From assembly GCF_947496385.1 (NCBI RefSeq), contig NZ_CANMCP010000002.1, forward strand, positions 293,035 to 357,034: DNA of 64,000 nt, in the 5' to 3' direction. Below the pieces are notes generated by a model. The model was not told where the DNA came from. It saw only the letters and a program-made list of their open reading frames with translations, and did not search any database. Numbering within the stretch: position 1 is the first letter of the stretch; every line of letters begins with the position of its first letter. The DNA comes from an uncultured Croceicoccus sp. (lineage in GTDB: Bacteria > Pseudomonadota > Alphaproteobacteria > Sphingomonadales > Sphingomonadaceae). A program made the position numbers and the translations under genes. Of this stretch, positions 17,817 to 63,637 are shown in pieces.

Positions 17817-19910
<2,094 letters not shown>

Positions 19911-37174: not shown

Positions 37175-37260
37175 TGGTGGACAGGGCTGGATTCGAACCA
37201 GCGTACGCTTGCGCGGGCAGATTTACAGTCTGCTGCCTTTAACCACTCGGCCACCTGTCC
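37175..37260 (-). tRNA. tRNA-Tyr (GTA), CCA encoded
   Basis: Minus-strand sequence folds as a class II tRNA of 86 nt with a 7-bp acceptor stem (GGACAGG / CCTGTCC), discriminator A, encoded CCA, T-arm GGTTCGAATCC, long variable arm and anticodon GTA (37226-37224). Confidence 0.96.
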
Positions 37261-43574: not shown

Positions 43575-43693
43575 GACCCGCAATGTAGTGCGATAACCCC
43601 CCAATGTCGAAGGGCGCGGACGTGCAAATTGCGGATAGCTCGCTGGTTCCGGGCAGGAACCCGGACCGATCGCGGCAGATATGGGGTGATGAA

Positions 43694-43788
43694 GGAGCCG
43701 GGCGACCCGCAGCAATCCGTTGTGGCTGCTTCCTTCCGGACCTGACCAGGTTGGCGAACGCGAACGTCCACCCGACTCCCGGCCCGCG
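43694..43788 (-). ncRNA. ffs: signal recognition particle 4.5S-type small SRP RNA
   Basis: Minus strand contains the conserved SRP domain IV (GGAAGGAAGCAGCC at 43737-43724, preceded by CCTGGTCAGGTCC) inside complementary GC-rich arms (GCCGGGAGTCGGGTGG-like 5-prime and CGGGTCGCCCGGC 3-prime). It is a small bacterial SRP RNA lying just upstream of dnaX. Confidence 0.93.
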
Positions 43789-53767: not shown

Positions 53768-54244
53768 TCAGCCCGGTATCCGGTAATAGCCCGCCACCCG
53801 GTCGAGCGCGAGTTTCAGCACGAGCTTCCCGCTGCGCGCAGGCCAGGCCAGCGCCTTCTCCGCATCGGGAAGCGTTTCGCCCGCACACACCACGCGCCAC
53901 AGCACATCGGCGAGCCCCGGCCCGGCGGCCGCGGTGGCCTCGTCAAAGCGGCGCCTGGCCGACATCTGCTTTTCCGTCGGGGTCAGGCCATTGTCGCCGC
54001 TCCCCTTGATCCGCACCGGGTCCCAGCTCATCGTGACGGACGGGGCGAGCTGCGCCCGCTCGTAATCGGCGCGCAGCCGCTCGCCCGCATCGGATTGCCG
54101 TTCGTCGAGATGGCCGCGCGAATGCAGCCAGGCGATAGGCGATTCGCGCAGGTTGACCGTCACCCCGCGTGCCCGGCGCCCGATCCCGCCGGTCCGGCGC
54201 GGCCCCTCGCTCGTCAGCTCGCGATTCGCATATTCGCCTGCCAT
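53768..54244 (-). CDS. DUF6456-domain protein, possible GTA-type transcriptional regulator
   Basis: A 158-residue basic protein with the DUF6456 pattern: LRADYERAQLAPSVTMSWDP followed by VRIKGSGDNGLTPTEKQMSA, RRRFDEATAAAGPGLADVLW and a C-terminal helical part. From memory DUF6456 occurs in GafA/GafZ regulators that activate gene-transfer-agent genes; I infer, not prove, a similar role. It is small compared with GafA. GGGAG lies 7 nt before ATG. The 21-bp element (54291-54311), shared with the holin gene, begins 47 nt upstream. Confidence 0.65.
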   Translation of the reverse strand: MAGEYANRELTSEGPRRTGGIGRRARGVTVNLRESPIAWLHSRGHLDERQSDAGERLRADYERAQLAPSVTMSWDPVRIKGSGDNGLTPTEKQMSARRRFDEATAAAGPGLADVLWRVVCAGETLPDAEKALAWPARSGKLVLKLALDRVAGYYRIPG

Positions 54245-54290: not shown

Positions 54291-54311
54291 ATGCTGTAGG
54301 AAAATAAAACC
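54291..54311 (-). repeat. 21-bp shared upstream element, copy 1
   Basis: An exact copy of 63160-63180 in inverted orientation; core TTTTATTTTCCTACAGC on the minus strand. It lies 46 nt before the DUF6456 ATG (54244) and 36 nt before the XRE gene start (54347) on the other strand. It is a candidate operator or activator site. Confidence 0.8.
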
Positions 54312-54346
54312 TGTGCGGTTCGTCGCGATGGTGGTAGTCACCCGGC

Positions 54347-54919
54347 ATGATCAATCGCATCCGCGCCATACGCAAGCAGCAGGGCCTGACCCTGGCCGAC
54401 CTCGCCGAGCGGTGCGATCCGCCCACCACGCCGCAGACGGTCGGCCGGCTGGAAACCGGAATGCGCACGCTGTCCATCGACTGGCTCAATCGCATTGCCG
54501 CCGCGCTCAAGGTGGAGCCGCAGACCTTGCTCACGAGCGAGGCGCGCGAGGCGACGATGGTGGTGGCGCGCCTGTCCGATAGCGGCGCCGAACCGCTGTC
54601 CTCCCCGCGGGAGGCGATCGCACCGGCATCGCTCCTGGGCGAGGCGAAGCTGACCGTGATGGAGGTATCGGCCAGCGCCGGGGAATATCGCGCCGGCGAT
54701 CAGGTCTGGCTGCGCGCGATGGACGATGCGGAGACGCCGCGTGCGATCAATCGCGACGTGCTGGTCCCGCGCCCCGGCGGGCGATTCGTGTTCGGCCGGA
54801 TGATCGACCGCGATGCGCAATCGGTCGCCATCCTGCCCACCGGCGCCGGGCAGCGGCAGACGGTCGTGACCAATCCCGCATGGGTGGCGGTCGCCGTCAT
54901 GCTGGTCCGTAAATTGTGA
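54347..54919 (+). CDS. XRE family HTH transcriptional regulator
   Basis: The 190-residue protein has an N-terminal Cro/cI-type HTH (INRIRAIRKQQGLTLADLAE; TVGRLETGMRTLSIDWLNRI) and a C-terminal beta-rich domain of unknown ligand specificity with LGEAKLTVMEVSASAGEYRA. It is divergent from the DUF6456 gene; the shared 21-bp element between them could be its operator. Its GTGA-type overlap with the next gene shows co-transcription. Confidence 0.9.
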   Translation: MINRIRAIRKQQGLTLADLAERCDPPTTPQTVGRLETGMRTLSIDWLNRIAAALKVEPQTLLTSEAREATMVVARLSDSGAEPLSSPREAIAPASLLGEAKLTVMEVSASAGEYRAGDQVWLRAMDDAETPRAINRDVLVPRPGGRFVFGRMIDRDAQSVAILPTGAGQRQTVVTNPAWVAVAVMLVRKL

Positions 54920-59108: not shown

Positions 59109-59185
59109 CGGGACGTAGCGCAGCCTGGTAGCGCATCACACTGGGGGTGTGGGGGTCGGAGGTTCGAATCCTCTCGTCCCGACCA
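59109..59185 (+). tRNA. tRNA-Pro (GGG), CCA encoded
   Basis: 77 nt fold as a tRNA: acceptor stem CGGGACG/CGTCCCG, anticodon stem TCACA/TGTGG with loop CTGGGGG and anticodon GGG at 59143-59145, T-loop GGTTCGAATCC and encoded CCA. Confidence 0.95.
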
Positions 59186-59318: not shown

Positions 59319-60155
59319 ATGGCCGCACGCGCCTATTGGAAGGGTCAGATCCGGCTCGCGCTGGTATCGATTCCGGTGGAAATCTATACCGCCGTCAAAT
59401 CGGGGTCGAAGATCAGCTTTCGCCAGATCCACGAACCGAGCGGCAAGCCGATCAATTACGAGAAGATCGTGCAGGGCATCGGCCCCATCGACCGCGACGA
59501 CATCATTCGCGGCTACGAAATTTCGAAAGACAATTACGTGCTCCTCGACGATGAGGAGATCGAGGCGGCGAAGGTCGAAAGCCGCAAGACGCTGGAACTC
59601 GTTCAGTTTGTCGACGCGCATGACATCGACGCCCTCTATTACGAGAAACCCTATTTCGTGGTGCCTGCGGACGATCTGGCGATGGATGCGTATGTCGTGC
59701 TGCGCGACGCGCTGCGACAGACGAAGAAGGTCGCGCTGGGGCAGATTTCGGTGCGCGGCAAGGAATTGCTCGTCGCGCTCAAACCCTGCGGCAAGGGGAT
59801 ATTGCTCGAAACGATGCGCTATGCCGACGAGGTCCGCAAGGGTCAGGCCTTTTTCGGCGAAATCGGCGAGGACGAGCCCGAGGACGAATTGCTCGAACTC
59901 GCCACGACACTGATCGAGAAGAAGAGCGCGCCGTTCGATCCGTCGGAATTCCACGACCGCTACGCCGACGCGCTCGAGCGGCTGATCGAGAAGAAGGCGA
60001 AGGACAAGGGCGGCAAGATCCTAGAGGATGTCGAGAAGCCGGAAAGCGGCAAGGGCGGCAATGTCATCGACCTCATGGCCGCGTTGAAGAAATCGGTGGG
60101 CGACGATGATGGCAAATCGCCTTCGAAGAAGACATCGCGCAAGAAGAGCGCCTGA
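59319..60155 (+). CDS. ku: Ku protein (non-homologous end joining)
   Basis: A 278-residue bacterial Ku homologue: core beta-barrel start [40 protein letters not shown] and the C-terminal basic, Lys/Gly-rich tail ([15 protein letters not shown]). It binds DNA ends and recruits LigD. It is 14 bp upstream of an MgtC-like gene, and LigD follows, so it heads an end-joining operon. A degenerate EcfG-like sequence (GGAAA-N17-CGCT, 59266-59291) precedes it but is not scored as a promoter. Confidence 0.97.
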
Positions 60156-60169
60156 ACGGCGGGACGACC

Positions 60170-60670
60170 ATGGAACTCAACCCATCGATCGCGCTCCAAT
60201 GGCTTGACTGGCAATTGATGCTGCGGCTGGGCGTCGCGGCGGTGCTCGGCCTCGTCCTGGGGCTGGATCGCGAATTGCGGGGGCATGCGGCCGGAATGCG
60301 CACGCATGGGCTGATCTGCTTTACCTCCGCGGCGGCGACCGTTTCGATCATTGCCCTTTATCTGCAACTCGGTCCGGAACGAATGGACCCCCTTCGCCTG
60401 TTCGAGGCGGCGGGTTCGTTCATCGGTATCGTCGGTGCCGGGTTGATCGTATTTTCGCGTGGGCAATTGCACAATATCACCACCGCCGCCAATCTCTGGC
60501 TTGCCGCGATCATCGGGGTGGCTTGCGGGGCGGCGCAATGGCCGCTCGTGCTGGTCGCGACGATCATTTCGATCGTGATGCTGAGGCTCCTTCGCATTCT
60601 CGAACGGCACATGGGTCCCGATCGACGATTGTCACAGGACGACGGCACCGCGCCGCGCGAACGCCGATGA
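60170..60670 (+). CDS. MgtC/SapB-family membrane protein
   Basis: A 166-residue membrane protein with about four helices and the MgtC N-terminal pattern: LMLRLGVAAVLGLVLGLDRE, LRGHAAGMRTHGLICFTSAA and AGLIVFSRGQLHNITTAANL. MgtC-like proteins are involved in magnesium limitation and virulence. Here it lies between ku (14 bp) and ligD (4-bp overlap), an unusual partnership. Confidence 0.88.
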   Translation: MELNPSIALQWLDWQLMLRLGVAAVLGLVLGLDRELRGHAAGMRTHGLICFTSAAATVSIIALYLQLGPERMDPLRLFEAAGSFIGIVGAGLIVFSRGQLHNITTAANLWLAAIIGVACGAAQWPLVLVATIISIVMLRLLRILERHMGPDRRLSQDDGTAPRERR

Positions 60671-63144
60671 CAAAACCATCCGACCCGCTCGCCGACTATA
60701 ACGCGAAGCGCGATTTCAGCAGGACCGCCGAGCCCACCGGCGATGCGGGCGCGCCGGGCGGCAATCGTTTCGTCGTTCAGAAACACGATGCGACCCGCCT
60801 GCACTGGGATCTGCGGCTGGAGAGCGATGGCGTTCTGAAAAGCTGGGCGGTGACCAAGGGCCCCTCGCCCGACCCCGATATAAAGCGGCTGGCGGTCCGG
60901 ACCGAGGATCACCCACTCTCCTATGCCGCGTTCGAGGGCACCATTCCGGACGACGAATATGGCGGTGGCACGGTCATGATCTGGGACCACGGAACATGGG
61001 CACCTGTCGAGGGGAAGAGCGCGGACGACCTTGCCGACGGGCATCTGCATTTCATCCTGTCGGGCGAGCGGATGAAGGGCGAATGGCTGCTCGTCCGGAT
61101 GAACCCGCGCAAGGGCGAACGCCGCGAAAACTGGCTGCTGCGCAAGATCGAAGATGCGCATGCGCAGAGCGGCGATCCGCTCGTCGAGCGTTGCCTCACC
61201 AGCGTATCGACAGGGCGTTCCATGGCCGAAATCGCCGCGAATGCCGACCCGAAATCCGGCGGCGGTGATGAAAAGACGGGCGGCCAGAAACGCGCCCGAA
61301 CGCGGCGCAATCCCGATGCGAAACCGCCCGCCTTTGCCAAGCCGCAGCTTGCCACGCTGGTCGACGCGGTTCCGACCGGCAATGGCTGGATGCACGAGAT
61401 CAAGTTCGACGGCTATCGTGCCATCGTCGCGGCGGCGGGTGACGCGGTGACGATCTATACGCGCAGCGGAAAGGACTGGACCGACAAATTTGGACCGCTC
61501 GCCGCGCATATTGCGGCGCTCGACCTTCCGCCATCGCTGCTCGACGGGGAAATCGTGGCTTATGGCAAGGATGGCAATCCCGATTTTTCGGCGCTGCAAT
61601 CCGTGCTGAAACGCGGGGCCGGGGCGCAGGGGGATGGCGATGCGCTCTCGTTCCACGCCTTCGATTTGATCGCGAGTGGCGGCGAGGATCTGGCTGCGCT
61701 CCCCAATATCGAGCGTAAGGAGCGGCTGGAAGCGCTTCTGCGCCACGCCGCGCCGCCGGTGCATGTCGCCGATCATGTCATCGGCGCGGGCGAGCGGCTG
61801 TATCGGACCATGTGCGATGCCGGGCAGGAAGGCATCATCTCGAAACGGATCGACGCGAAATATCGCCACGCGCGCAGCAAGGCGTGGGTCAAGGTGAAGT
61901 GCACGCGGCGGCAGGAGTTCGTCATCGTGGGGTATAGCGAATCAAAGGCGAAGGGACGCCCGTTCGCCTCCTTGCTGCTGGCGCAGAACGAAGGCGGCGA
62001 ATTGCAGTACAAGGGCAAGGTCGGCACAGGCTTCGACGCCGATACGCTCGACGATCTTTCGTCACAAATGAAGCGGATCGCGCGCAAGACGCCGCCGCTC
62101 ACGGTCGCGAAAACCGACGCGCGCGGCGCGCATTGGGTGACGCCGAAACTCGTTGCCGAAGTCGCCTTCGCCGAGTTCACCGCGGATGGGAAGGTACGTC
62201 ACGGCAGCTTCCTCGCCCTTCGCGAGGACAAGGATGCCGGTGAGGTGCGGCCCGAAACCGCCGCCGCCCCACCGCCCGCGCCGCATCCGGTCGAGATCTC
62301 CAGCCGCTCGCGCATCGTCTTTCCCGATAGCGGACAGACGAAGGGCGAGCTTGCCGATTATTATGCGGCGATCGCCCCGCTCATGCTGCCGTTTGCCGCA
62401 CGGCGCCCAATAAGCCTCGTGCGCTGCCCGCGGGGCCGCGCAAAGAAATGCTTTTTTCAAAAACACGACAGCGGCGCGTTCGGGCCGCATGTGCACGCCG
62501 TCGCCATCGCCGAAAAGGACGGCGGGATGGAGGATTACCTCTATCTGGAGGATGACGCCGGCATTCTGGCCTGCGTGCAGATGGGAAGCGTGGAATTTCA
62601 CGGCTGGGGCAGCCGCACCGACGATGTCGAAGCGCCCGACCGCATGATCTTCGACCTCGACCCCGATGAGGCCGTGGATTTTGCCGACGTAAAAAAAGCC
62701 GCGAGCGATATTCGCGACCGGCTGGCCGATATCGGCCTCGTCAGCTTTCCCATGCTTTCGGGCGGCAAAGGCGTGCATGTCGTCGTTCCGCTATCGCCGG
62801 CGCACGGTTGGGACGCGCACAAGGATTTCGCCCGCCGCTTTGCCGAGGCGCTGTCCCTGACCGAACCCGATCGCTTCGTCGCGACGATGAGCAAGGCCAA
62901 GCGTAAGGGCCGCATTTTCATCGACTGGCTCCGCAATCAGCGCGGGGCGACGGCGGTGCTGCCCTATTCCGCCCGGGCACGAAGCGGGGCGCCCGTCGCG
63001 GTGCCGATCACCTGGGACGCGTTGAACGATGCCAAGGATGCGCACCCGTTTTCAATCGATGACGCAGATCGGTTGTTGCGGCGGGCCGAAGACGACGCGT
63101 TGGCGGGATGGGGTTTTGCAGAGCAGGAACTGCCCGACATCTAA
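60667..63144 (+). CDS. ligD: multifunctional DNA ligase D (PE, ligase, polymerase domains)
   Basis: The 825-residue LigD has an N-terminal phosphoesterase domain with RLHWDLRLESDGVLKSWAVT near residues 44-65, a central ATP-dependent ligase with nucleophile Lys246 in MHEIKFDGYRAI and later VVKVKCTRRQEFVIVGY-type motif, and a C-terminal primase-polymerase domain from about residue 545 with the catalytic acidic motif MIFDLDPDEAVDFAD. Together with Ku it performs non-homologous end joining. It overlaps the MgtC-like gene by 4 bp. Confidence 0.97.
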   Translation: MTKPSDPLADYNAKRDFSRTAEPTGDAGAPGGNRFVVQKHDATRLHWDLRLESDGVLKSWAVTKGPSPDPDIKRLAVRTEDHPLSYAAFEGTIPDDEYGGGTVMIWDHGTWAPVEGKSADDLADGHLHFILSGERMKGEWLLVRMNPRKGERRENWLLRKIEDAHAQSGDPLVERCLTSVSTGRSMAEIAANADPKSGGGDEKTGGQKRARTRRNPDAKPPAFAKPQLATLVDAVPTGNGWMHEIKFDGYRAIVAAAGDAVTIYTRSGKDWTDKFGPLAAHIAALDLPPSLLDGEIVAYGKDGNPDFSALQSVLKRGAGAQGDGDALSFHAFDLIASGGEDLAALPNIERKERLEALLRHAAPPVHVADHVIGAGERLYRTMCDAGQEGIISKRIDAKYRHARSKAWVKVKCTRRQEFVIVGYSESKAKGRPFASLLLAQNEGGELQYKGKVGTGFDADTLDDLSSQMKRIARKTPPLTVAKTDARGAHWVTPKLVAEVAFAEFTADGKVRHGSFLALREDKDAGEVRPETAAAPPPAPHPVEISSRSRIVFPDSGQTKGELADYYAAIAPLMLPFAARRPISLVRCPRGRAKKCFFQKHDSGAFGPHVHAVAIAEKDGGMEDYLYLEDDAGILACVQMGSVEFHGWGSRTDDVEAPDRMIFDLDPDEAVDFADVKKAASDIRDRLADIGLVSFPMLSGGKGVHVVVPLSPAHGWDAHKDFARRFAEALSLTEPDRFVATMSKAKRKGRIFIDWLRNQRGATAVLPYSARARSGAPVAVPITWDALNDAKDAHPFSIDDADRLLRRAEDDALAGWGFAEQELPDI

Positions 63145-63159
63145 ATAGTTAACCTATAT

Positions 63160-63180
63160 GGTTTTATTTTCCTACAGCAT
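63160..63180 (+). repeat. 21-bp shared upstream element, copy 2
   Basis: Exact copy of 54291-54311 read on the other strand; core TTTTATTTTCCTACAGC on the plus strand. It begins 67 nt and ends 46 nt upstream of the holin ATG at 63227. The surrounding region is AT-rich. Confidence 0.8.
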
Positions 63181-63226
63181 ATAACCATTCTAGCGATCCA
63201 GCGTCCATCGGCAAAGGAGCGCAGCC

Positions 63227-63637
63227 ATGCCCATTCTCGAATCCCTCATCGGGCCCATCACCCGCATCATCGACAAGGTCATCCCCGACAAGGAAGCCCG
63301 CGACCGGGCCAAGCTGGAACTCCTGAGCCTCGAAGCGGATCACGAGCTCAAGCAGATCGAGGCGCGGCTTTCGGCGATCGTCACCGAGGCGCAATCGCCC
63401 GACCCATGGACCAGCCGGGCGCGACCCGGATTTCTCTACGTCATGTATCTCATCATCCTGTTCGCCATCCCCATGGGCGTGATCGGCGCCTTCAATCCCG
63501 CGACGGCGCATGCGATCGGCAATGGCATGACAAGCTATCTCAACGGGCTTCCCGAACCGCTCTATGCGCTCTTCGGGACGGGCTATCTCGGCTATACCGC
63601 GGCGCGCCAGTGGGGCAAGGTGAAGGGCGTCGACTAG
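63227..63637 (+). CDS. 3-TM holin of the gene-transfer-agent release type
   Basis: A 136-residue protein with an N-terminal amphipathic helix, cytosolic charged segment (VIPDKEARDRAKLELLSLEA), then hydrophobic segments (residues about 68-90, VMYLIILFAIPMGVIGAFNP, and a C-terminal region ending TARQWGKVKGVD). The pattern matches the holin family named for GTA release (GTA_holin_3TM). Isolated between ligD and accB, with no endolysin or phage structural genes visible. AAGGAG lies 8 nt upstream of ATG 63227. A canonical holin forms lesions in the inner membrane. Confidence 0.78.
   Translation: MPILESLIGPITRIIDKVIPDKEARDRAKLELLSLEADHELKQIEARLSAIVTEAQSPDPWTSRARPGFLYVMYLIILFAIPMGVIGAFNPATAHAIGNGMTSYLNGLPEPLYALFGTGYLGYTAARQWGKVKGVD

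Follow-up and report, generated by a model that had tools for sequence, protein, structure and literature searches.

An identical element before a regulator gene and a holin gene

The window, by which we mean the whole 64,000-nucleotide stretch analysed here from an uncultured Croceicoccus sp. (Sphingomonadaceae), carries a 21-bp element in two identical copies, one before a gene for a DUF6456 protein related to activators of gene transfer agents (GTAs) and one before a GTA-type holin gene. The genes and elements concerned are as follows.

53768–54244, minus strand: DUF6456 protein, 158 amino acids (aa), stand-alone GafA C-terminal or GafZ type (PF20057, E 3.4e-40, residues 29–155)
54291–54311, minus strand: 21-bp element, copy 1 (exact match)
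54295–54307, minus strand: 13-bp core TTATTTTCCTACA before the DUF6456 gene, -35-like
54308–54320, no strand: palindrome AACC-N5-GGTT, probable operator of the divergent XRE regulator
54347–54919, plus strand: divergent XRE regulator, 190 aa, CI-like (HTH_3, E 2.2e-11)
63151–63163, no strand: palindrome AACCTATATGGTT before the holin core
63160–63180, plus strand: 21-bp element, copy 2 (exact match)
63164–63176, plus strand: 13-bp core before the holin gene
63227–63637, plus strand: GTA_holin_3TM holin, 136 aa (PF11351, E 4.8e-29, 101.8 bits against a cut-off of 24.8; phrog_3427 holin, E 2e-26)

The first-pass annotation, made from the letters alone, had named the DUF6456, GTA_holin_3TM and XRE proteins, and the profile matches confirm all three. 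It had also described the two copies as exact and alike in orientation relative to their downstream genes, which direct matching bears out; both do precede an ATG (54244 on the minus strand for DUF6456, 63227 on the plus strand for the holin), at exactly 46 nt in each case and not over the range of 46–48 nt originally given. With up to three mismatches allowed, the 21-mer has two matches in the window against a mean of 0.00 in 100 shuffles, in agreement with the claim that a chance pair is unlikely, and the complete genome of 3.34 Mb adds only one more. This third match is followed after 48 nt by an ATG with which an SLT transglycosylase gene is taken to begin, a choice based on a signal peptide recognised by eye, an upstream in-frame ATG also being present. 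At the same threshold, 60 relatives gave matches in 13 of the 14 Croceicoccus genomes (G006 is the exception) and in 2 of the 46 relatives outside the genus (G039 and G057), with one 3-mismatch site each; the reversed control gave 2 sites. The element comprises GGTT (the right half of the palindrome), the 13-bp core TTATTTTCCTACA and a terminal GCAT, the last being changed at the holin promoters of two close relatives, G002 and G009 (CCAT in L019, CCAG in L022). The conserved unit is therefore at most 17 bp.

The window DUF6456 protein lacks a DnaA-like N-terminal domain, its DUF6456 domain beginning at residue 29, and its relatives in other families are about 280–305 aa long. Its model (pLDDT 74) appears to contain a helix-turn-helix (HTH) resembling sigma region 4 and matched sigma factors and Q21 at moderate Z, the Q21 match being weak; a PDB sequence search gave no match at E 1. 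The XRE model (pLDDT 88) combines an HTH with a LexA/CI-like C-terminal domain, its top Foldseek matches being a lambda-186 hybrid repressor and phage 186 CI. An XRE homologue is divergent to the DUF6456 gene in all 80 named loci of the family, and in all 30 of the loci among the PF20057 matches that were read for gene order.

At window positions 59319–63637 ligD lies immediately upstream of the holin gene, with ku, also of non-homologous end joining, further upstream; ligD precedes the holin in G002 and G009 too.

The core and the palindrome in the genus Croceicoccus

The core pattern TYATTTTCCTACA occurs at 75 sites in the genus, with 2 to 9 in each of the 14 genomes, while the reversed pattern has none. 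All 75 were read individually, and most have unrelated flanks, 56 remaining after reduction at 70% identity for an information profile. The largest classes lie before genes for DUF6456 (14 sites), two-domain TerS-like proteins (12, one cut by a contig end), GH24 endolysins (9) and holins (7). Two classes of smaller TerS-like genes contribute 5 and 4 sites, SLT transglycosylases 4, uncharacterised proteins of 150–156 aa 4, small XRE proteins 3 and a 772-aa protein 2. A GTA spike base protein of the RCAP_Rcc01079 family (G008, L047:1563-1823, E 1e-26) and an unassigned site (L083) account for one each, and the remaining nine belong to a conserved non-coding element. One representative of each TerS-like class (21 sites together) was scanned and matched phrog_4044, terminase small subunit, at E 5e-26 to 2e-10. 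The seven core sites of the window's own genome precede the DUF6456, holin and endolysin genes, two TerS-like genes, the SLT gene and the gene for the 772-aa protein.

At all 41 readable sites of the four largest classes, the start codon lies 48–56 nt past the end of the core; other spacings are seen at the small TerS-like, 772-aa and non-coding sites. DUF6456 is the sole class with an exact core in every genome (14/14). The holin, which was not found in the fragmented genome G012, has an exact core in 7 of the 13 genomes where it was found and a near core (1–2 mismatches in 15) in the other 6; endolysins without an exact core likewise have a near one (1–2 mismatches) in 5 of 5 cases, so that exact and near cores together cover 14/14 endolysins and 13/13 holins. 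The core is not scattered, as refutation of the first-pass proposal would have required, and homologues retain it upstream of both genes named by the first-pass annotation throughout the genus and, in shortened form, the family.

The palindrome is distributed differently. It directly precedes the core at all 14 DUF6456 promoters and, counted with at most one mismatch and within 40 nt of a core, is present at 14/14 DUF6456 sites, 4/7 holins, 3/4 of the 150–156-aa proteins, 2/2 sites of the 772-aa protein and one smaller TerS-like gene, but at no other core site, against 474 of 20,000 random windows. By the same measure it is absent from the endolysins (0/9) and the two-domain TerS-like genes (0/12), and a factor other than the XRE protein should therefore read the core.

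Conservation across the family

Outside the genus, the full core TTATTTTCCTACA has one site in each of 3 of 117 family genomes (the reversed control gave one site in 119 searched). A shorter core, TTTCCTACA, is family-wide: of the 80 named loci, 78 have the pattern [TG]TCCTAC[AT] no more than 150 nt from DUF6456. The two others are L189, which has it further upstream, and L181, which has TTTCCTATT. Thirty-seven family loci also contain a holin, and 35 of these have the core before it. The palindrome is perfect at 52 of the 80 DUF6456 loci and 28 of the 37 holins, and present with at most one mismatch at 65 and 33 respectively, whereas 16,000 random 150-nt windows of the same loci included 91 with the core and 127 with a perfect palindrome. 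Two protein alignments were made with the window protein, one adding 42 of the 80 loci and the other 33.

These data leave little room for the pair having arisen by chance or by recent duplication of a single site. The last four identical bases (GCAT) do look coincidental, but the shuffles, the mostly unrelated flanks of the 75 genus sites and the conservation of the core in the family refute this explanation, to which we attach practically no probability. On the sequence evidence, the 21-mer region appears to be a conserved promoter element common to lysis, DNA-packaging and regulator genes; the occurrence of the core before DUF6456 and holin genes in genus and family supports the earlier proposal that lysis and a GTA-type regulator are tied together by a common regulatory site.

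The order of the two elements is not fixed. At family DUF6456 promoters the palindrome lies upstream of the core, whereas at 29 of the 31 holins with both elements it follows the core at a gap of exactly 2 nt. Of 119 family genomes, 35 carry this composite holin pattern, at 37 sites in all (reversed control 0); it is missing in G000 and G009, where the element order is reversed. Thirty of the 37 sites were read: 28 lie directly before a holin, one has a holin 655 nt downstream and one precedes a TerS-like gene. The first-pass annotation named the XRE protein as the best candidate to bind the 21-bp element. In its favour, the XRE gene lies divergent to DUF6456 wherever a locus was read, and four bases of the 21-mer are a palindrome half. 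XRE probably does bind the overlapping palindrome. However, the core stands without the palindrome at endolysin and two-domain TerS-like genes, palindrome-like sites stand without the core in XRE–GafA intergenic regions of other families (by eye) and before the GTA cluster described below, and the opposite order at DUF6456 and most holins also speaks against a single binding unit; we regard binding of the whole element by XRE as improbable. The core would accordingly need its own reader, as proposed below.

Searches for endolysin-like genes in other genera found distant relatives (28–37 bits) in 7 of 19 genomes, with no clear core; the L292 gene has TTTTCCTACT at a distance of 244 nt. Many DUF6456 promoters of other genera (L150–L229, by eye) contain a conserved TTTGGCAAG-like stretch about 10–12 nt past the core, which perhaps serves the XRE gene, on the opposite strand, as its -35.

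Relation to gene transfer agents

A homologue of gafA, annotated as DUF6456, is reported for 196 of 208 alphaproteobacterial genomes (PMC9765227). In further families of the order (e.g. L120, L125, L136) an XRE gene is read away from DUF6456, or from a longer GafA-like gene, and TerS and TerL follow the latter; the arrangement is also found in G030 and G020 of the window's own family. From the core to DUF6456 the distance is 51 nt in G030; in G020 it is larger, about 175 nt to the open frame. In the window's own genome a GTA head-tail cluster with TerL and TerS is present on another contig (L040; capsid E 1.5e-85), while the set of GTA Pfam families, including Rcc01698_C, DUF2460, tail tube and portal, was shown in the relative G001 only. 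The promoter of the own cluster has an operator-like AACCTATATGGCA of the form AACC-N5-GG(T/C)A before TTGACA.

As judged by one marker family, a GTA-type capsid was undetected in 7 of the 14 genus genomes (G004–G007, G010–G012), four of which have no PF05065 match and three weaker ones only, the neighbourhoods of those in G005 and G006 being prophage-like by eye. DUF6456 and its core are kept in all seven, which raises the question of whether lysis is retained for its own sake. Frame changes interrupt DUF6456 in G009 (L015), whose genome is a single contig, and the holin in G007 (L050), and the circuit may therefore be decaying in some species.

GTA_TIM (PF13547) was also tried as a marker and matched none of 60 genomes, although RcGTA-type clusters exist and a Caulobacter control matches; this test is uninformative because a gp15-like protein read in G001 is without that domain.

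A two-part promoter and its possible regulators

The distance of about 50 nt from core to start codon, together with an enrichment of A at 16–17 nt past the core (+16 and +17 in 31 and 30 of the 56 sites), would place the core at -35, although the -10 is poor by eye at both copies. In Rhodobacter capsulatus the C-terminal 162 aa of GafA, a fragment about the size of the entire window DUF6456 protein, bind a gafA-promoter fragment with a predicted -35; residues 87–382 activate that promoter without the N-terminal domain, and residues 221–382 alone do not induce GTA production (PMC9638019). The elements, with their conservation, orientation, spacing and target genes, are observed. From the position of the core, this binding and the DUF6456 and XRE models we infer that DUF6456 activates by way of the core and XRE represses by way of the palindrome; any statement on the signal for induction is likewise inferred. 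We propose that the 21-mer marks two-part promoter control over a dispersed GTA and lysis regulon. The core, TTTTATTTTCCTACA for the genus and TTTCCTACA for the family as a whole, would be read at the -35 position by the 158-aa DUF6456 protein, which would activate its own gene in positive feedback as well as the holin, endolysin and TerS-like genes. The palindrome AACC-N5-GGTT would be the operator of the CI-like XRE repressor, keeping the regulator and the holin off and probably also the GTA head-tail cluster; failure of repression would then let DUF6456 activate itself and commit the cell to packaging and lysis. We consider this overall reading somewhat probable, if far from assured.

Several observations weigh against it. 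The GTA cluster promoter of the own genome has no core, and some Novosphingobium lack the palindrome although their XRE recognition region is unchanged (this region is nearly invariant across loci, which leaves XRE/operator covariation without power as a test). The SLT and small XRE sites (L003, L012, L055 and L066; L069, L101 and L072) share a second repeat, ATGTTCTATATATGTTCT-like by eye and adjoining the core, which is perhaps the operator of a second regulator, and the L003 SLT gene lies by a Toprim gene and, by eye, an integrase-like frame; these sites may therefore be a separate matter. Finally, the dispersed promoters of Caulobacter are bound by GafY and not by GafZ (PMC9632790), which also favours an alternative: a different activator (such as a GafY-like protein encoded elsewhere) or an alternative sigma factor would read the core, with DUF6456 merely one of its targets. 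The mixed functions of the genes with a core, including SLT and small XRE, would suit this alternative. On the other hand, only the DUF6456 class has an exact core in every genus genome, the GafA C-terminal fragment binds its -35 unaided, and no GafY-type homologue was found in the locus DNA examined, a weak test that falls short of a whole-genome search. We consider this explanation possible but unlikely.

A further alternative is that the core acts in RNA, as a leader loading or antitermination element, GafZ-type proteins being antiterminators. Caulobacter GafZ is reported to be one (PMC11150451), the DUF6456 model matches Q21 weakly, the core-to-start distance is constant and nine non-coding elements begin with the same core. 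Against this stand the -10-like enrichment of A, the binding of DNA by the GafA C-terminus at -35 and the position of the sole predicted stem of the non-coding elements, some 170 alignment columns from the core. In comparison with Q-type antiterminators (Q21), the core is placed at the predicted -35, whereas the GafZ element lies between -10 and -35. An RNA role thus seems to us very improbable.

Within the reading we favour, binding of the core by DUF6456, a more specific version is conceivable, though we hold it only tentatively and think it doubtful: the stand-alone DUF6456 may be a minimal surrogate of sigma region 4 that takes over from sigma70 region 4 in reading TTTCCTACA at -35, thereby steering RNA polymerase towards a dispersed packaging-and-lysis regulon. 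The element would drift by genus (to TTATTTTCCTACA in Croceicoccus), and the regulon would persist as a programmed-lysis circuit without a particle where no GTA-type capsid is detected.

Comparison with known systems

Studies in Rhodobacter and Caulobacter have established how GTAs are controlled. Among the articles listed by searches of open-licence PMC, none reported this motif or a GTA regulon in Croceicoccus. Like the window protein, GafA of R. capsulatus, the RcGTA activator, has a DUF6456 C-terminal region; it autoactivates, and its overexpression raises capsid and endolysin transcripts (PMC9638019, PMC6363796). It differs in that the window protein corresponds to the C-terminal part only, in that a short core motif can be defined here, and in that a CI-like repressor gene adjoins here whereas CtrA and GtaR act on gafA in R. 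capsulatus.

PF20057 has matches in the Caulobacter control genome, and GafZ presumably carries DUF6456. The GafYZ/RogA/IHF system of Caulobacter crescentus resembles the predicted arrangement in its repressor, which acts at inverted repeats in the gaf promoter, in a DUF6456-type GafZ and in dispersed targets (PMC9632790, PMC11150451). The RogA operator is a different one, the conserved palindrome being AACC-N5-GGTT here and GGAA-N4-TTCC there. There is also no GafY gene beside DUF6456 here, holin and endolysin genes are among the targets where the authors recognised none in Caulobacter, and a motif can be defined where they were unable to predict one for GafYZ (PMC9632790). The XRE protein shares with temperate-phage repressors (phage 186 CI, lambda CI) its HTH and, by fold, LexA/CI-like C-terminal domain, a palindromic putative operator and a divergent promoter; unlike them it has no surrounding phage genome, and the GTA and lysis genes that it would control are dispersed and host-borne. 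Here a sharp repeated motif delimits a candidate Sphingomonadaceae GTA and lysis regulon from sequence alone and names its likely activator and repressor; it points to lysis genes remote from the GTA cluster and offers a route, by motif, to unrecognised GTA accessory genes. It also makes the control of domesticated viruses testable in this family, as regards both the binding protein and the trigger of release.

Occurrence of the core in phages was considered and rejected. The holin-type composite has matches in 62 viral contigs, most of them representing a single recurrent AT-rich context; at E 1e-4 these contigs gave no homologue of the holin, of DUF6456 or of TerS, and no clear target is seen in the two most similar-looking ones, both GC-rich. 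The DUF6456-type composite has no match in viral contigs, and DUF6456 itself occurs in 2 of 50,697 phage records (35% and 30% identity).

Non-coding elements and other RNAs

The nine non-coding elements (L009, L056, L073, L053, L080, L091, L092, L078 and L103), from seven Croceicoccus genomes, are about 180 nt long, start with the core and end in TGTCACC/GGGTGACA repeats. An Rfam scan of them gave no match, and of 8 predicted pairs none has changes on both sides. The L078 element, and probably that of L092, precedes a gene starting MPLYEHVF, which at L078 we take to be rpsF-like, and the gene after the L103 element is presumably yebC-like. In the window itself, Rfam matches comprise a TPP riboswitch (19797–19904), a bacterial small SRP RNA (43688–43782) and two tRNAs (37178–37260 and 59109–59182).
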